Source: Deltaproteobacteria bacterium | GTDB lineage: Bacteria > Desulfobacterota > GWC2-55-46 | DNA: 36,687 nt | Direction: 5' to 3' | NCBI GenBank assembly: GCA_016234405.1 | Contig: JACRCC010000019.1 | Location: 1-36,687 of the forward strand | Shown here: positions 11,407 through 36,687 of the stretch, in pieces | How positions within the stretch are numbered: the stretch's first letter is position 1 | How the letters are laid out: each line of letters begins with the position of its first letter | Translations under genes and position numbers: made by a program | The notes under the pieces: model-generated | What the model was told of the DNA's origin: nothing | Seen by the model: only the letters and a program-made list of their open reading frames with translations | The model's database searches: none

Positions 11407-12125
11407 GCATGGGCCCCGGCGGCCTCCCCCATCTGACGCTCAGGGCTATGGAAGTCCTGAAGGCCGCCGACGCGATAGTCGGGTACACGCGGTACGTGGA
11501 ACTTATCGCCCCGCTTACAGCGGATAAGGAAATTTTTTCAACCGGCATGACCCGCGAGATTGAGCGGTGCGAGAAGGCCATTGCGTTGGCGCGTGAGGGC
11601 AAAACCGTTGCAATGGTTTCGTCAGGCGACGCGGGCATCTACGGCATGGCGGGGCTTGTCATGCAGGTGGCCATGCGGCGCGGCGAGCCTGTTCCAATTG
11701 AGGTCATACCCGGCGTGCCGTCTTTTGTGAGCGCGGCGGCCATACTCGGGGCCCCGCTCATGCACGATTTTGCCTCCATTTCGTTATCAGACCTCTTGAC
11801 CGATTGGGAAAAGATCGAGGGCCGCCTACTCGCGGCCGCAAAGGCGGATTTTGTCATAGTCCTCTACAACCCCAAAAGCGGGAAGAGGACAGAGGGGTTG
11901 AAAAAAGCGGTTTCCATCATCGCGGCCCACAGGGAGGGCAATACTCCGGTTGGCATCGTGAGAAACGCAACGCGCGAGGGTGAGGACGCGGTAATCACCA
12001 CGCTCTCCGGCTTTCATCTTTATTACGACAAGATTGACATGTTGACTATCGTTATCGTGGGCAACTCGACTACGTTTACGCATGAGCACAGGATGATAAC
12101 GCCGAGGGGCTATAAAGGCGTATGA
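11340..12125 (+). CDS. cbiH: Cobalt-precorrin-3 C17-methyltransferase CbiH
   Basis: CbiH methylates C17 and contracts the corrin ring (cobalt-precorrin-3 to -4). The 261-residue protein has VYVVGMGPGGLPHLTLRA (residues 19-36), MVSSGDAGIYGMAG (about 92-105) and VIPGVPSFVSAAAILGAPL, then NPKSGKR and TPVGIVRNATR, all family features. The ATG at 11340 follows GAGGG but overlaps cbiG by 67 bases. A TTG near 11385, just before the conserved core, is a possible alternative. The stop overlaps the deoB start (ATGA). Confidence 0.92.
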   Translation: MAKKDKGRPRNGGNGLGAVYVVGMGPGGLPHLTLRAMEVLKAADAIVGYTRYVELIAPLTADKEIFSTGMTREIERCEKAIALAREGKTVAMVSSGDAGIYGMAGLVMQVAMRRGEPVPIEVIPGVPSFVSAAAILGAPLMHDFASISLSDLLTDWEKIEGRLLAAAKADFVIVLYNPKSGKRTEGLKKAVSIIAAHREGNTPVGIVRNATREGEDAVITTLSGFHLYYDKIDMLTIVIVGNSTTFTHEHRMITPRGYKGV

Positions 12126-13297
12126 GCGCCGTCAAGCGCGCAGTTATCATGGTCTTCGACGGTTTCGGCGCGGGCGCGCTTCCGGATGCGCCTTCCTACG
12201 GTGACGCGGGCAGCCACACCATAGACAACGTGTCCAGAGCCGTCGGCAAACTCCATATCCCCAACCTCGTCGGGTTCGGGCTTGGACTCATCGAAGGGAT
12301 AAACGCCGTTGAAAAGACACTAACCCCGATAGCCTCATACGGGCGCATGAGGGAGGTCTCTCCGGGTAAGGACACGGAGACAGGCCACTGGGAGATGTCC
12401 GGCGTCATATTGGATAAACCCTTTCCGACATATCCCGGGGGTTTTCCGCCGGAGATAATGGAAAGATTTACGAAGGCCACGGGATACGGATGGCTCGGCA
12501 ACTGCGCGGCTTCGGGCACCAAGATAATAGAAGCGCTCGGGGCAGAGCATATTAGGACGGGTAGGCTTATCGTCTACACCTCCGCTGACAGCGTCTTTCA
12601 GATTGCGGGTCACGTTGACGTTATCCCGGTCGAGGAACTCTACAGGGTCTGCGAAATAGCGCGGGAGCTGCTCTATGAATATAACATCGGGCGCGTGATA
12701 GCGCGGCCTTTCGCGGGCCATCCGGGGGACTTCAGGAGGACGGATGGGAGGCGGGACTACTCCCTTGCCCCGTGCTCCGAGACAATAATTGAGAAGATAA
12801 AGGCAGCGGGGCAAAACGTAGTAGGCATAGGAAAGATAGGCGATATATTCGCGCATCGCGGGTTGACCTTTGAGGCGCACACAAAAAATAACATGGACGG
12901 GATAGACAAGACGATTGCCGCGTTGAAGGAGTCTAAAACAGGCCTGATATTTACGAACCTCGGCGATTTCGACACCCTCTACGGCCACAGGAACGACGCG
13001 GTCGGTTATGCCAATGCGCTCTTCGAGGCGGATGCGAGGCTCCCTGAGATAATTGCCGCGCTTGATGAGAGGGACGTCTTCATTATCACCGGGGACCACG
13101 GGTGCGACCCGACTACCCAGTCCACGGACCACTCGCGGGAGTACGTGCCGCTCCTTGTCTATGGAAAGGGACTAAAACCCGGCGTCAATCTCGGCACGAG
13201 GCTGAGCTTTGCCGATGTCGGCGCGACTTTAGCCGAGGTTTTTTCCATCAAAGGATTTAAGGCGGGCAAATCTTTTTTTAGTGAGATATTGATGTAA
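12122..13297 (+). CDS. deoB: Phosphopentomutase DeoB
   Basis: DeoB interconverts ribose 1-phosphate and ribose 5-phosphate, and the deoxy forms, in nucleoside salvage. The 391-residue protein has the alkaline-phosphatase-fold metal site VFDGFGAGALPDA (residues 11-23), Thr85 in PGKDTETGHWEM as the expected phosphorylated residue, and late metal motifs FTNLGDFDTLYGHRND and FIITGDHGCDPTT. Length matches the family. The ATG at 12122 overlaps the cbiH stop by four bases, so deoB is translated as part of the cobalamin cluster. It might balance the ribose phosphate that enters alpha-ribazole, but that is inference. Confidence 0.95.
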   Translation: MSAVKRAVIMVFDGFGAGALPDAPSYGDAGSHTIDNVSRAVGKLHIPNLVGFGLGLIEGINAVEKTLTPIASYGRMREVSPGKDTETGHWEMSGVILDKPFPTYPGGFPPEIMERFTKATGYGWLGNCAASGTKIIEALGAEHIRTGRLIVYTSADSVFQIAGHVDVIPVEELYRVCEIARELLYEYNIGRVIARPFAGHPGDFRRTDGRRDYSLAPCSETIIEKIKAAGQNVVGIGKIGDIFAHRGLTFEAHTKNNMDGIDKTIAALKESKTGLIFTNLGDFDTLYGHRNDAVGYANALFEADARLPEIIAALDERDVFIITGDHGCDPTTQSTDHSREYVPLLVYGKGLKPGVNLGTRLSFADVGATLAEVFSIKGFKAGKSFFSEILM

Positions 13298-13431: not shown

Positions 13432-13461
13432 TTGCAAGGCATCATGGCCATAGGTTATATT
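13432..13461 (+). promoter_or_regulatory. Possible sigma70 promoter before the HTH-PilZ gene
   Basis: TTGCAA (13432-13437), 18 bases, TATATT (13456-13461). It lies in the 226-base gap after deoB, about 60 bases before the next start codon, in an AT-rich stretch. No clear terminator for the cobalamin cluster is visible in this gap. Confidence 0.4.
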
Positions 13462-13523: not shown

Positions 13524-14057
13524 ATGATTACAATGAACGGAGTAGATATCAGGAGATACCGAAGGCTGCTCGGCTGGTCACAGGAGAGGCTTGCAAGGGA
13601 ATTGAATGTGAGTTTCTCAACGGTCAATAGGTGGGAGGCCGGGAAGACAAGACCAAACGGCATGGCAAGAAAAGCGCTCGCAGCGCTCTTCTCCAAATTG
13701 AGCCCGTCTGAAAATAGAACCTGCCGGAGGATACCGCTGCGTTTTCCGATACGGATATTCTCGGCGGTTGGCTGCGGAAAGTGCGAAACGGGTTGCATTG
13801 GTCTTTGCGAGGACATAAGCATCGGCGGGTTTATGTTTAAGAGTGAAGAGTCCTTTACCGCCGGAGAGAAGCTCAAGATTTCCTTTGACTGCGAAACACG
13901 TCCCCGCAGGCTTAAAGAGGGGATATGCGCCGCCTCCGAGGTTGTGTGGACGGCCACGGACGCCGGTGGAGGGACTTGGATTAAGGCAGGCGCGCGCTTT
14001 AACGGTTTAGGCAAGAGCGATTTTGCAAAGATCGTAACTGCGGCGTTTTTCAACTAA
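13524..14057 (+). CDS. XRE-type HTH regulator fused to a PilZ domain, with a four-Cys cluster
   Basis: A 177-residue protein after a good ribosome site (AAGGAGA). Residues 7-56 are an XRE helix-turn-helix (LLGWSQERLARELNVSFSTVNRWEAG). Residues 66-175 look like PilZ, the cyclic di-GMP receptor domain: RRIPLR (68-73) holds the RxxxR arm and EDISIGG (96-102) the DxSxxG motif. Between them are Cys84, Cys87, Cys91 and Cys95 (CxxCxxxCxxxC), unusual for PilZ and able in principle to bind a metal or Fe-S cluster. A DNA-binding protein responding to cyclic di-GMP, and perhaps metal or redox state, is inferred. The histidine kinase gene follows after five bases. Confidence 0.78.
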   Translation: MITMNGVDIRRYRRLLGWSQERLARELNVSFSTVNRWEAGKTRPNGMARKALAALFSKLSPSENRTCRRIPLRFPIRIFSAVGCGKCETGCIGLCEDISIGGFMFKSEESFTAGEKLKISFDCETRPRRLKEGICAASEVVWTATDAGGGTWIKAGARFNGLGKSDFAKIVTAAFFN

Positions 14058-14062
14058 CGGAA

Positions 14063-15493
14063 ATGTTCTTCGGCAACCACGGAATTATGTCAACGGGCGT
14101 AAAAGAAGGAAGTCTCAGTCTTTCGGCGGACGGCGTGATCCAGAGGTTCGGCTACGGGCTCGAGTTCATACTCGGCTATAGCTCCGAAGAGGTCATCGGA
14201 AGGAATTTCAGCGTCTTTTCTCCGGCGGGGCGCGAGGCCGAGCACGCAAGGCTGCTTGAAGACGCGAAGGCCGGGGCAATTACCGGATACAAGACGCGCC
14301 TCATTAGGAACGACTCCGAGATAATTGATATCTTCATGTCCGTATATCCCCTCCGTGACCCCGGCGGCGCCGTCTACTCCTATATCCTCACCATCACGGC
14401 CGACAAGAACGTCGAGATACCGGCGATACTCTCCGAGGAATTTCAGCGCATGTTCAAGTTCATGAACGAGGGCGCGGTCGTAACCGACAGACTCGGGGGC
14501 ATCATTGACGCGAATCAGGCATTTTTGGACGTGTATGGATACGACAAAGACGAGGTCATCGGCAAGAACCCGCGCATACTCAAATCCGTTCATTCCACGA
14601 AAGACCTCTACGCGAGGATGTGGAGGGACATCCTCGACCCGAATAAGGGTTTTTGGAGGGGCGAGATAATAAACAAGGCCAAGGATGGCGCTGAGGTGCC
14701 GGCGCTCCTTACGATAAACGCCGTCAAGGACTCCGAGGGGGAGATACGGAATTTTCTCGGCATAACGCTCAACATGAGCCGCGAAAAGGAACTCGACAGG
14801 CTCAACAAGATGTATATAGACTACATCGTGCACGACATGAGGGGCCCGCTCACGACCATCGTTACGAACTCGGAACTCCTTGAGATGCAAATTACCGATC
14901 CATCTCTTGAAAAGGCGCGGAAAAAGTTAGGCGTGATACTGTCGTGCGCCTTGAAGCTCTCCTCCATGACCTCTGACATATTGGATTACAGCAGGGCGCA
15001 AAGCGGGAGCCTCATCCTGAGAAAAGAGAGGATAAACATCGGGCGCACCCTGAAGGACGCGGCAATGCCCTTTGAAAACTCCGAAAAAAAACTTTTCGTC
15101 AACGGATTTTTGTACGGAGGGAATTACCCTCTTCGCGGAGACAAAGCAGACGACGGCATGGAGATGGTCGCGGACCCGGACAAGCTGCAAAGGATTATAT
15201 TCAACCTCCTCTCCAACGCCTTTAAGAACGCGGCAGACACGGTGAAGGTGAATTACGAATTGGGAAAAACAGGCATGACCTTTACGGTCTCGGACGACGG
15301 CAAAGGCTTATCCGAGAAGGACGCCGCGCACATATTCGAGATATTCTATCAGACCGACGACGGGGTGAGGAGCGGCGGGGCCGGGTTGGGGCTCAACATC
15401 GTCAAGAGTTTCGTCGAGGCGCACGGGGGCAAGATTTGGGTTGACCCCGGCTCCGGCAACGGCGCCACGTTTGGGTTCTCGATACCGGTCTAA
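14063..15493 (+). CDS. PAS-PAS sensor histidine kinase
   Basis: A 476-residue kinase without transmembrane segments, so probably cytoplasmic. Two PAS domains occupy about residues 15-125 and 126-245 (FILGYSSEEVIGRN; FLDVYGYDKDEVIGKNP). The HisKA helix follows, with phospho-accepting His257 in YIVHDMRGPLTT. The ATPase domain has the N-box FNLLSNAFKNA, DDGKG, FEIFYQTD and GGAGLGLNIV. The loop before ADPDKL (around residues 350-365) contains YGGNYPLRG, encoded by a palindrome at 15117-15131. A start at the ATG at 14087 is also possible. No adjacent response regulator is present; the linked HTH-PilZ gene lacks a receiver domain. Confidence 0.9.
   Translation: MFFGNHGIMSTGVKEGSLSLSADGVIQRFGYGLEFILGYSSEEVIGRNFSVFSPAGREAEHARLLEDAKAGAITGYKTRLIRNDSEIIDIFMSVYPLRDPGGAVYSYILTITADKNVEIPAILSEEFQRMFKFMNEGAVVTDRLGGIIDANQAFLDVYGYDKDEVIGKNPRILKSVHSTKDLYARMWRDILDPNKGFWRGEIINKAKDGAEVPALLTINAVKDSEGEIRNFLGITLNMSREKELDRLNKMYIDYIVHDMRGPLTTIVTNSELLEMQITDPSLEKARKKLGVILSCALKLSSMTSDILDYSRAQSGSLILRKERINIGRTLKDAAMPFENSEKKLFVNGFLYGGNYPLRGDKADDGMEMVADPDKLQRIIFNLLSNAFKNAADTVKVNYELGKTGMTFTVSDDGKGLSEKDAAHIFEIFYQTDDGVRSGGAGLGLNIVKSFVEAHGGKIWVDPGSGNGATFGFSIPV
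15117..15131. repeat. In-frame GAGGG-AATTA-CCCTC palindrome in the kinase gene
   Basis: A perfect 5-bp-arm palindrome with AATTA centre. Its flanks (GGAGGG ... CCCTCTTCG) read in reverse match the element in the lon-like gene at 22186-22200 (CGAAGAGGG ... CCCTCC). The two are therefore the same element in opposite orientation. Confidence 0.6.
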
Positions 15494-15969: not shown

Positions 15970-15988
15970 ATCCGATGCGCCTTTCGCG

Positions 15989-16060
15989 GGAGCAGGTTTG
16001 CAAACTGCTCCATAAACTTCGTATTTACCTCACACGAACTATTGGGTTCAACTTGAACCC
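15989..16060. promoter_or_regulatory. Two palindromes upstream of modA, possible operator
   Basis: GGAGCAG (15989-15995) pairs with CTGCTCC (16005-16011) around a TTTGCAAA-containing centre. A second palindrome, GGGTTCA-ACT-TGAACCC, spans 16044-16060. Both lie in the 146-base gap between the ModE-type gene and modA. They could be regulator binding sites or RNA hairpins. They do not match the E. coli ModE box, and I could not fit a molybdenum cofactor riboswitch. Confidence 0.4.
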
Positions 16061-16115
16061 GCAGCGGTTGCCGCGAAGCATTGCAACGGGGGTTGAGGGG
16101 ATTAAGGGGGCGGTT

Positions 16116-16934
16116 ATGCGTAAGGCATTGAAACGATTGGCCGGGTTTTTTACGGCAACCCTTTTTTTAGCCGCCGCAGTTGCTGCTATTCCAGCGTCTC
16201 CATCGTGGGCGCACGAGGGTCTTACGATTGCCGCCGCGTCGGACTTGAGCGGGGCGCTGCGTGAAATCGCCTTTGCCTTTGAGGCTGAAACTGGCGTAAA
16301 GGCCGTATTGTCCTTTGGGTCAACGGGCATGCTCGCAAGGCAAATTAAAGAAGGCGCGCCCTTCGACGTCTTCCTCTCGGCTGACGAGGGTTATGTGGGC
16401 GACCTCAACAAGGGCGGGTTCGTGATGGCCGAGTCAATCCGCGTTTACGCTTATGGCAGGCTCGCCATTGTAACGAGCAACGCATCCGTCATGGAAATCA
16501 AAGACTTCAACCTAATGGGGCTCGCGCAGCCGGGCATTAAAAAGATAGCCATTGCAAACCCCGGGCACGCGCCCTACGGCAGGGCAACGGTCGAGGCCAT
16601 GAAAAAGGCGGGGGTGTGGGACGGCGTTAAAGACAAGCTCGTATACGGCGAAAACGTCAGACACGCCCTCCAGTTCGTTGAGACAGGCGACGCGCAGGCT
16701 GGGATAGTCGCGGTCTCCATAGCAAACATTGAGGGCGTTAAGGTCTATCCGGTTGACGAGGGCATGCACAAGCCGATAGTCCAGACAGGGGCGGTCTTGA
16801 GAGGCTCGAAAAACGTCGCCATCGCCGGGAGATTTTTGGACTATCTCGCATCAAGCAAGGGCAGGGAGGTTCTGTTGAAATACGGTTTTAGATTGCCCCC
16901 TCCCGCCCCTTCCACGAAGACAAAAAAGGATTGA
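16116..16934 (+). CDS. modA: Molybdate ABC transporter periplasmic binding protein ModA
   Basis: A 272-residue exported solute-binding protein for molybdate (possibly tungstate). The ATG at 16116 follows AAGGGGG at 16104-16110. A signal peptide spans residues 1-32, with basic MRKALKR then a hydrophobic core ending SWA. The mature protein starts EGLTIAAASDLSGALREIAFAFE, the ModA motif, with FGSTGMLARQI, GAPFDVFLSAD and AIANPGHAPYGRA following. The ligand residues expected from the family (Ser in AASDL, Ser in GSTGM) are present. modB follows after 47 bases. Confidence 0.92.
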   Translation: MRKALKRLAGFFTATLFLAAAVAAIPASPSWAHEGLTIAAASDLSGALREIAFAFEAETGVKAVLSFGSTGMLARQIKEGAPFDVFLSADEGYVGDLNKGGFVMAESIRVYAYGRLAIVTSNASVMEIKDFNLMGLAQPGIKKIAIANPGHAPYGRATVEAMKKAGVWDGVKDKLVYGENVRHALQFVETGDAQAGIVAVSIANIEGVKVYPVDEGMHKPIVQTGAVLRGSKNVAIAGRFLDYLASSKGREVLLKYGFRLPPPAPSTKTKKD

Positions 16935-16981
16935 CGGCGGGCAATGCACCCTCCTTTTCTAAAGGGTGGTGTGGGGAGATT

Positions 16982-17638
16982 ATGGATTTTTTTCCTTTGT
17001 ACCTCACAATCAAGGTCTCCTTCACTGCCACCGTCATCACGGCAGCCGCCGGGCTTGTCCTGTCGTGGCTGCTTGCGAAGAAGGATTTTTTCGGTAAAAC
17101 CCTTCTCGACGCGGTCATCATGCAGCCGCTTGTCATGCCGCCGACCGTGCTCGGATATTATCTGCTTTCGGCCTTAGGCAGGGGAAGCGCGCTCGGCGGT
17201 TTTCTCTCGGATACTCTCGGCATTGACATTGTCTTTACGTGGAAGGGGGCGGTTATAGCCTCGGTCGTCTCGTCGCTGCCGCTGTTCGTAAAGCCCGCAA
17301 AGGCGGCATTCGAAGGCGTAAGCGTTGAGCTTGAGGACAGCGCGCGGCTTCTCGGCAAGTCGGAGTTCGCCGTTGTGCGCTCCATTACGCTGCCTTTGGC
17401 AAAACGCGGGATTGCCGCGGGCGCGGTCATGGCATTCGCGCGCGCAACCGGGGAATTTGGCGCAACGCTCATGGTGGCGGGCAACATCCCCGGGGTTACG
17501 CAGACGCTCCCAATAGCCATCTACGACGCCGCCCAATCCGGGGACGGTTTCACCGCTAATATCCTCGTCGGGATCATCACCGTATTTTCCCTGACCGTGC
17601 TTTATGTTGCCGGCAGATTTCTTAAAGGCAGGGATTAA
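16982..17638 (+). CDS. modB: Molybdate ABC transporter permease ModB
   Basis: A 218-residue inner-membrane permease with about five helices. The coupling motif is GVSVELEDSARLLGKSEFAVVRSITLPL, the EAA loop that contacts ModC, and RATGEFGATLMVAGNIPG is a strong ModB signature. The ATG at 16982 is preceded by GGGGAG at 16973-16978. The gap after modA holds a degraded G/C palindrome (GGCGGGCAATGCACCCTCC) and a small hairpin (16947-16968). An in-frame start at 16931 would span this repeat and is less likely. Confidence 0.93.
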   Translation: MDFFPLYLTIKVSFTATVITAAAGLVLSWLLAKKDFFGKTLLDAVIMQPLVMPPTVLGYYLLSALGRGSALGGFLSDTLGIDIVFTWKGAVIASVVSSLPLFVKPAKAAFEGVSVELEDSARLLGKSEFAVVRSITLPLAKRGIAAGAVMAFARATGEFGATLMVAGNIPGVTQTLPIAIYDAAQSGDGFTANILVGIITVFSLTVLYVAGRFLKGRD

Positions 17639-17639
17639 A

Positions 17640-18752
17640 GTGAGCATCAGGTTCGACCTCAAAAAGTCAATCGCAGGATTTGACATTGACGCGTCTCTCT
17701 CCCTCGAGGAAGAGCTTATGGTGCTCTTTGGCCCTTCGGGGGCGGGCAAAACCCTCCTCCTCAAACTTATAGCCGGGATAATAAAACCCGATAAAGGGAC
17801 GGTTGCAATCCGGGGAGATAAGGTCTTTGATTCCGGCGAAAGGATTGACGTGCCCATGAGAGGGAGGAGGGTGGGTTTCGTATTTCAGGACTACGCGCTC
17901 TTTCCGCACATGACCATCGGGGAGAATATCGCTTATGGGATACCGGAAAAAAAGGACGCCCTTGCCGCGGAGGCGGTAAGGGGACTCGTTGACCTCATGA
18001 GGCTTACGGGGCTTGAGCAGAGATACCCGCGCGAGATATCAGGCGGACAAAGGCAGAGGGCCGCGCTTGCGCGCACCCTTGCGGCAAAGCCGGGCATTTT
18101 ACTTCTTGACGAGCCTTTCTCTGCCCTCGATTATCAGGTGAGGGAAAAGCTGAGGGCGGATTTACTGAGGATACATGAGGTCTACCCTGTGACCACGCTC
18201 CTCGTTACGCACGACCTTGAAGAGGCCTTTATGCTTGGCGCCCGGATCGCGGTCATAAACCACGGCCGCATCGAGCAGGTGGGGCCGCGCGAGGAGGTCT
18301 TCTACAGGCCTGTTACGCGAAACGTCGCAAGGTTCATCGGATTCAAAAACATCTTTGACGGCGTTGTCGCGGGCATTGACGCCAACGGGTTAATCATCCA
18401 TAATTCAGATATGGGGGCAGTAAGGGCCGATGCGCCGTCCGGGGGGGGCGTTGCCGTCGGCGGCCGCGTTACGTTCTGCATTAGGCCCGAAGACATAGTC
18501 GTGGTAAGGCCCGACAAGACGGCGGTCTTATCATCGCCATCTAACGTCTTTGACGCATACGTCGAGTCAATCACAGGCAAGGGGTCCACGCAGATGCTAT
18601 TCCTCAAGGTGGGTTATTCCCACGTTGCCGGAGAGAGGGGCGCGTCCATTAAGGCGGAATTGCCGAACTTCGTCGTGAGAAAATTAGGACTTTGCGCAGG
18701 CATGAAGATAAGGGTTCTCCTGAAAAAGGAAAGCATCCGCGTAATAGCGTGA
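17640..18752 (+). CDS. modC: Molybdate ABC transporter ATP-binding protein ModC
   Basis: A 370-residue ATPase driving molybdate import. Walker A is GPSGAGKT (residues 31-38), the Q-loop VFQDYALFPH, the signature ISGGQRQR, Walker B ILLLDEPFSALD and the switch THDLEEA. The C-terminal 80 or so residues (from about 285; CIRPEDIVVVR, then STQMLFLKVG) form the TOBE-like regulatory domain. The GTG at 17640 overlaps the modB stop region (TAAAGTG, no gap beyond two bases) and follows CAGGG. With modA and modB it makes a complete importer. Confidence 0.92.
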   Translation: MSIRFDLKKSIAGFDIDASLSLEEELMVLFGPSGAGKTLLLKLIAGIIKPDKGTVAIRGDKVFDSGERIDVPMRGRRVGFVFQDYALFPHMTIGENIAYGIPEKKDALAAEAVRGLVDLMRLTGLEQRYPREISGGQRQRAALARTLAAKPGILLLDEPFSALDYQVREKLRADLLRIHEVYPVTTLLVTHDLEEAFMLGARIAVINHGRIEQVGPREEVFYRPVTRNVARFIGFKNIFDGVVAGIDANGLIIHNSDMGAVRADAPSGGGVAVGGRVTFCIRPEDIVVVRPDKTAVLSSPSNVFDAYVESITGKGSTQMLFLKVGYSHVAGERGASIKAELPNFVVRKLGLCAGMKIRVLLKKESIRVIA

Positions 18753-35574: not shown

Positions 35575-36687
35575 ATGAGCGTTGCGAAAGAAAAAGAAGA
35601 TCCGGCGCCGATCCTTTCTTGGTCCAGAAGGGCAAGGATACTCGTTGCCGACGACGACAAGTTCTACCTCAAGATATTCTCCGACCTCATCGCCGAGCTT
35701 GGGCACGATTCCCTCACCGTTGAAAACGGCCTCGAGGCCCTTGAAAAGGTCAAGGACTACAGGCCCGACCTCGTCATAAGCGACGTCGTCATGCCCGGCA
35801 TGGACGGGTTTGAGCTGACCAAACGGCTTAAACACGACCCGCTCACCATGTACATCCCGGTCCTCATCATCACGTCCCTCACCGACAGGGAATCCAAGGT
35901 CAAGGGCCTCGACATCGGGGCCGACGAGTTGCTCTCCAAGCCCATTGACGAGTCCGAGTTCCGCATCAGGATAAAGAACATGCTCAAGGTAAAGAGGTAC
36001 GAGAACTTCTTGGTTGAGCACGGCAAGCGTCTCGAGGGAGAGGTTTTGAATAAGGACGCGCAGCTTCACGATGCCTTCGAGAAGATACGGAACGGCTACG
36101 TGGAGACGGTCTACCGCCTCACGCTCGCGGCCGAGTACAGGGACAAGGAGACCGGAGGCCACATAAAAAGGATAAGCCTCTATTCGCAGATACTCGCAAG
36201 GTATTTAGGGCTTCCTGAATCAAAGGTCGAGTCCATTTTTTTCGCGTCCCCCATGCACGACGTCGGGAAAATCGGCATCCCGGACGCCATCCTTTTGAAG
36301 AAGGGCAGGCACACGATTGAGGAATTTGACGTCATGAAGACGCACACGACCATCGGCGGGGCCATCTTGCGCGATTCGGATTCCGAGATTTTGAAGACCG
36401 CGCAGGAGATAGCGCTCACGCACCACGAGTCGTGGAACGGCGCGGGCTATCCGCTCGGGTTGAAGGGCACGGAGATACCCATATCAGGCAGGATAGTGCA
36501 TGTAGCCGACGTCTACGACGCGCTCAGGAGCAAACGCCCCTACAAGGAACCCTTTGACCACGAAATCACCTGCAGCATCATGGAGGCCGAAATATACAGA
36601 TTCGACCCCACGGTCTACAAGGCCTTCGTGGATTGCAGGGACGAGTTCAAACGCCTGTTCGATGAGCATCAGGAAGAGGCGATTTGA
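35575..36687 (+). CDS. Response regulator with HD-GYP domain (probable cyclic di-GMP phosphodiesterase)
   Basis: A 370-residue protein ending exactly at the last base. Residues 20-140 form a receiver domain with phospho-acceptor Asp70 (VISDVVMPGMDGF), acidic Asp26-28 and Lys122 (SKP). A coiled-coil linker (about 140-180) leads to an HD-GYP domain: MHDVGKIGIPD with His228/Asp229, and HHESWNGAGYP at 283-293. The catalytic set for cyclic di-GMP hydrolysis is present, with Ser and Asn at positions where R/K and D are usual. It is complete, and probably controls cyclic di-GMP levels, the ligand expected for the PilZ protein at 13524. The partner kinase is not obvious. Confidence 0.92.
   Translation: MSVAKEKEDPAPILSWSRRARILVADDDKFYLKIFSDLIAELGHDSLTVENGLEALEKVKDYRPDLVISDVVMPGMDGFELTKRLKHDPLTMYIPVLIITSLTDRESKVKGLDIGADELLSKPIDESEFRIRIKNMLKVKRYENFLVEHGKRLEGEVLNKDAQLHDAFEKIRNGYVETVYRLTLAAEYRDKETGGHIKRISLYSQILARYLGLPESKVESIFFASPMHDVGKIGIPDAILLKKGRHTIEEFDVMKTHTTIGGAILRDSDSEILKTAQEIALTHHESWNGAGYPLGLKGTEIPISGRIVHVADVYDALRSKRPYKEPFDHEITCSIMEAEIYRFDPTVYKAFVDCRDEFKRLFDEHQEEAI

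Follow-up and report, generated by a model that had tools for sequence, protein, structure and literature searches.

Does a single small protein, with a DNA-binding domain at one end, a PilZ domain at the other, and a cluster of cysteines in between, read both cyclic di-GMP and a metal or redox signal? The gene that raises this question lies on contig JACRCC010000019.1 of a Deltaproteobacteria bacterium (assembly GCA_016234405.1), which we analyzed as one window, a stretch of 36,687 nucleotides. An earlier note, made from the letters of this DNA, had proposed a transcription factor in which an XRE-type helix-turn-helix (HTH) is fused to PilZ and in which Cys84, Cys87, Cys91, and Cys95 add metal or redox sensing. 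Domains and motifs, together with an orthologous family and a candidate operator, support the cyclic di-GMP part of that proposal; conservation lends the metal or redox part no support. We estimate a probability of roughly two in three that the gene encodes an autoregulated, cyclic di-GMP-responsive XRE-PilZ transcription factor, with a cysteine cluster of unproven use. This reading rests on the observed domains, motifs, and gene order and on a palindrome and its co-occurrence with the fusion gene (feature coordinates are given in Table 1).

The HTH-PilZ fusion carries a complete set of PilZ receptor motifs

An XRE DNA-binding domain is indeed joined to a PilZ domain, with both Pfam matches above their curated cutoffs: HTH_3 scored 46.5 bits against a cutoff of 23 (E 3.7e-12), and PilZ (PF07238) scored 35.1 bits against 22.5 (E 1.8e-8). 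We define the PilZ receptor motifs as RxxxR and [D/N]xSxxG, following the available portion of PMC10333796. The first of these had been placed at RRIPLR, which is out of register; the conserved RxxxR is R65-T-C67-R-R69. Across the 17 aligned homologues, R65, R69, and G102 are invariant and position 97 is always D or N; at position 99, S occurs in 15 and G in the other 2. Since R65, R69, D97, S99, and G102 are all present in the fusion, its receptor motif set is complete. A PilZ profile of the family also matched the Alg44 PilZ chains 4xrn and 4rt0 (E 4e-4 and 7e-4, respectively), aligning with them through RxxxR and DLSAGG. A six-frame PilZ search of the fusion's own genome listed 10 other places, the fusion locus not being among them. 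In an AlphaFold2 model built from the single sequence, confidence was high for the HTH alone; the predicted local distance difference test score (pLDDT) was below 50 at residues 60-122 and 124-177.

Would such a receptor find its ligand? The genome has 10 GGDEF matches. The earlier note had also pointed to an HD-GYP enzyme at 35575; the protein there combines Response_reg with HD_5 by Pfam, so that an HD-type domain is present, joined to a receiver. Together, the 10 GGDEF matches and this receiver-HD protein make a cyclic di-GMP pool likely.

We propose that the HTH, probably as a dimer, would bind a TGYTATARCA palindrome that precedes the fusion's start codon and thereby control the fusion's expression, probably along with that of the adjoining kinase gene. 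The PilZ domain would bind cyclic di-GMP at RxxxR and DxSxxG, altering DNA binding. Here we infer binding of the palindrome by this protein, the sign of regulation, and cyclic di-GMP as the ligand.

A predicted transcription factor family so far seen in one order

To place the fusion, we searched 48 genomes of its order with the protein as the query, a set in which its own genus is represented by one species. Matches occurred in 19 genomes, and the HTH-PilZ fusion was present in 17, its own genome included. The remaining two matches look, by eye, like a protein with the HTH alone (G031) and one that joins a receiver to PilZ (G046). In a sample of the phylum, at least 8 of 395 genomes had a match spanning 150 or more of 166 positions when up to nine candidates per genome were scored; among those candidates, all matching genomes belong to the fusion's own order. 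A plasmid search gave no match to the fusion protein. PHROGs matches covered the HTH region only, 15 loci on viral contigs matched within residues 1-109, and 4 loci on genome contigs matched within residues 8-78. We conclude, from these sequence searches, that the fusion belongs to a predicted family of XRE-PilZ transcription factors that is so far seen in one order.

Identity to the 17 homologues is 58-67% in the HTH part and 24-38% in the rest of the protein. The HTH is thus much better kept than the remainder, which fits a retained DNA target.

One genome, G034, has five HTH-PilZ copies (loci L105, L108, L109, and L110), and no kinase orthologue was matched there at E 1e-90.

A candidate operator upstream of HTH-PilZ genes

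If the DNA target has been retained, is there a shared site upstream of these genes? We compared 17 regions, each reaching at most 250 bp upstream, leaving out one at a contig edge and those of three further G034 copies. The palindrome core GYTATARC was present in 13 of the 17 regions, and the full TGYTATARCA in 9; the window's own copy, TGCTATAGCA, is a perfect palindrome. In 300 dinucleotide shuffles, GYTATARC occurred in a mean of 0.29 regions and a maximum of 2. It was missing from all 174 regions taken upstream of other genes at these loci. The best-matched control was provided by the regions (317-400 bp) upstream of kinase genes that lack an adjoining fusion, and here too the core was absent from all 11. 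The difference between 13 of 17 and 0 of 11 gives a Fisher p of 7e-5 when relatedness is ignored. Across the 2.04 Mb of the fusion's own genome, TGYTATARCA has 3 sites, compared to 8 for the reversed control. The remaining two sites, just inside the start of a listed open reading frame (ORF) (L146) and between two converging ORFs (L148), are not plainly placed in promoters.

Several points weigh against reading the palindrome as the operator of the fusion. It was picked by eye from the same regions in which it was then counted, which makes the shuffle figure optimistic, and the 174 control regions are largely coding. The rows compared are related to one another, four coming from genus g5 besides G029. 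Four of the 17 regions have no exact GYTATARC (L096 and L105 have one mismatch each, L104 and L107 two each), and the three further G034 paralogues have no palindrome upstream. Finally, TGYTATARCA occurs 11-13 times in each of five f4 genomes that gave no match to the fusion (G032, G037, G041, G045, and G047), where the palindrome may serve another regulator.

By eye, imperfect second copies of the palindrome seem to lie about 12-14 bp from the first in several upstream regions. A promoter-like match at 13432-13461 was set aside, being no better than what shuffles give.

Conservation and meaning of the cysteine cluster

The CX2CX3CX3C pattern lies between the two cyclic di-GMP motifs, as the earlier note had described. 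The fusion has seven Cys in all (67, 84, 87, 91, 95, 123, and 135); besides the quartet, Cys67 is inside RxxxR. Are the four kept together in homologues? The alignment shows that they are not. Cys was found at columns 84, 87, and 95 in none of the 17 homologues and at column 91 in one (L028, from G029). The homologues have 0-3 Cys in total, and the three further G034 paralogues, which likewise lack the set, have 1, 2, and 2. In the fusion's own genome, the 8 of 10 other PilZ loci that were motif-scanned have at most one Cys in the inter-motif stretch, in a scan that also picked up spurious frames. At the level of both family and order, the cysteines thus vary while the PilZ motifs persist, which by the earlier note's own criterion speaks against the metal-sensing proposal. 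As judged from the alignments, the quartet is private to its own genome among the genomes compared, order-wide and with one species of the genus.

How unusual is such a cluster? When 7 Cys were placed at random in 177 positions, at least four fell within 12 in 1,965 of 100,000 trials. We took a genomic Cys frequency of 1.15% from 334 ORFs, picked greedily by length from the window and 20 other stretches of the genome; the fusion is outside this sample because a longer antisense ORF overlaps its gene. At that frequency and an assumed proteome of about 0.6 million residues, arithmetic gives an expectation of about 0.01 exact CX2CX3CX3C patterns and about 1.8 clusters of any four Cys within 12 residues. 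As a nucleotide pattern, CX2CX3CX3C occurs 15 times in the genome, and the reversed control also occurs 15 times. Six of the 15 fall in the reading frame of a stop-to-stop ORF 100 or more residues long. The fusion is one of the six; the other five all match Fer4-type or NuoG-type iron-sulfur (Fe-S) models. Four Cys within 12 residues were found in 5 of the 334 sampled ORFs, of which four, including one in L141 that was scanned through its L120 copy, have Fer4 matches and the fifth, in L129, matches no Pfam family. Within this genome the spacing is thus a pointer to Fe-S proteins, but mostly for the reason that it forms part of ferredoxin motifs. We conclude that the cluster is unusual, yet within what one genome can produce by chance.

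What, then, produced it? The probable explanation is drift, in a part of the PilZ domain that changes fast. The inter-motif stretch varies in both length and sequence among homologues, a cluster of four is expected by chance in a genome of this size, and the lone Cys of L028 sits at one of the four columns. Against drift stand the excess of Cys in the fusion over every homologue and a spacing that is otherwise confined, among long ORFs of the genome, to Fe-S proteins. Perhaps the cluster is instead an artifact of assembly or a frameshift? The genome is assembled in 106 contigs. However, the loop aligns without gaps to L014, the closest homologue, which has matching residues inside the loop and on both flanks and carries R, E, F, and T in place of the four Cys; the frame is also open throughout. 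The gap-free alignment means that the quartet arose by substitutions and not as an inserted module, and it speaks against a frameshift, which we rejected; an artifact of either kind is highly improbable.

A second possibility would add to the transcription factor reading: Cys84, Cys87, Cys91, and Cys95, perhaps with Cys67, may ligate an Fe-S cluster close to where cyclic di-GMP would bind, which would make DNA binding responsive both to cyclic di-GMP and to oxygen or redox state. The five Fe-S ORFs that share the exact spacing and the seven Cys of the fusion favor this, and its CGKCETGC resembles the CGxCx3C portion of ferredoxin-type sites. We nevertheless regard such dual sensing as doubtful. 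No homologue examined has the full Cys set, and as nucleotides the pattern and its reversed control are equally common. The Fe-S matches mostly sit within longer ferredoxin motifs; the fusion has neither the first Cys nor the Pro of CX2CX2CX3CP, gave no Fer4 match in Pfam at E 1, and so does not qualify as a ferredoxin-type Fe-S protein. By homology, moreover, Cys91 and Cys95 would lie on one strand before DxSxxG, about 13 Å apart if it is extended, a distance that a single cluster could not span without a bend in the strand. It seems unlikely to us that a lineage-specific 4Fe-4S cluster between the PilZ motifs makes cyclic di-GMP binding, and through it the autoregulated promoter, dependent on redox state. 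Four close Cys can also bind Zn, and the cluster might be a structural zinc site or a thiol switch with no Fe-S involved. The PilZ part evolves fast, making a new stabilizing site plausible. The usual zinc ribbon has two CxxC, looser than the spacing found here, and with Cys that are not conserved we hold a zinc or thiol role to be quite unlikely.

Neighboring genes

The fusion gene lies in a syntenic order of cobalamin genes, a Metalloenzyme-superfamily gene (which we read as phosphopentomutase), HTH-PilZ, a PAS histidine kinase, and modABC-like genes. The earlier note had a kinase gene next door, and Pfam agrees, finding PAS, HisKA, and HATPase_c. A second ATG of the kinase, at 14087, agrees better with homologues, so its start is 5 or 29 bp past the fusion stop. 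The kinase adjoins the fusion on the same strand in 13 of the 17 fusion genomes; in the other four (G006, G007, G034, and G040) no orthologue was matched at E 1e-90.

Is the kinase a dedicated partner of the fusion? At E 1e-90, an orthologue was present in 26 of the 48 genomes of the order, 13 of which have no fusion match. We compared 11 of these 13 loci, leaving out G025 and G042. In 10 of the 11, the phosphopentomutase gene ends 61-270 bp 5' of the kinase; in the eleventh, the contig begins too far in to show this. The presence of the kinase without the fusion in these 11 loci weakens the case for a dedicated partner. Nor did Pfam find a Response_reg match in the fusion at E 1, so the fusion lacks the receiver that would mark it as the kinase's response regulator. 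On the strength of gene order, we conclude that the kinase is a stable conserved neighbor and not an obligate partner of the fusion.

No receiver gene was seen beside the kinase, which sits between the phosphopentomutase and the modABC-like genes.

Table 1. Features of the HTH-PilZ locus, in positions of the window
Feature	Position	Strand	Basis
Metalloenzyme-superfamily protein, phosphopentomutase by our reading; conserved upstream neighbor	12122..13297	+	Pfam, gene order
Candidate operator TGCTATAGCA, perfect 10-bp palindrome, 33 bp 5' of start codon	13481..13490		Upstream comparison
XRE HTH-PilZ fusion gene, 177 aa	13524..14057	+	ORF translation, Pfam
HTH_3 (XRE) DNA-binding domain, residues 9-55	13548..13688	+	Pfam; identity to homologues
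PilZ domain, residues 64-172	13713..14039	+	Pfam; family profile against Alg44 PilZ chains
RxxxR motif, R65-T-C67-R-R69	13716..13730	+	R65 and R69 invariant in 17/17 homologues
CX2CX3CX3C, Cys84-Cys95, between both PilZ motifs	13773..13808	+	Sequence; absent from homologues
[D/N]xSxxG motif, D97-I-S99-I-G101-G102	13812..13829	+	Homologue alignment
PAS-HisKA-HATPase_c histidine kinase	14063..15493	+	Pfam (PAS in two stretches); gene order
modABC-like transporter genes (solute-binding protein, permease, ATPase), conserved downstream	15975..18752	+	Pfam, gene order

Comparison with known systems

In the open-license literature, as far as its available portions go, neither an XRE-PilZ or HTH-PilZ factor nor a metal-binding PilZ domain (Fe-S, redox, zinc, or CxxC) is described among the matches listed. 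The closest likeness is to the PilZ cyclic di-GMP receptors Alg44, YcgR, and BcsA, whose RxxxR and [D/N]xSxxG motifs are also found in the fusion and of which Alg44 aligns with the family profile. To these the fusion adds an N-terminal XRE domain and, in this member only, four Cys between the motifs. With five ferredoxin-type 4Fe-4S proteins of its own genome it shares CX2CX3CX3C, but not the remainder of the ferredoxin motif, and it has no Fer4 match. If the private Cys do bind a cluster, redox control would have been grafted onto a PilZ domain.

BrlR of Pseudomonas is a single transcription factor reported, in the available portion of PMC6028453, as a receptor for both cyclic di-GMP and pyocyanin. 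It is listed with HTH and GyrI-like domains (PMC10519070, likewise in part) and, by that listing, lacks the PilZ domain that the fusion has. MrkH of Klebsiella is described in the accessible part of PMC12564702 as a PilZ-type transcription factor with a novel DNA-binding domain. The fusion resembles MrkH, so described, as a predicted PilZ transcription factor and differs from it in having a canonical XRE HTH. With its predicted 10-bp operator, a compact XRE-PilZ family would offer a simple route for PilZ control of transcription, and one open to direct testing.
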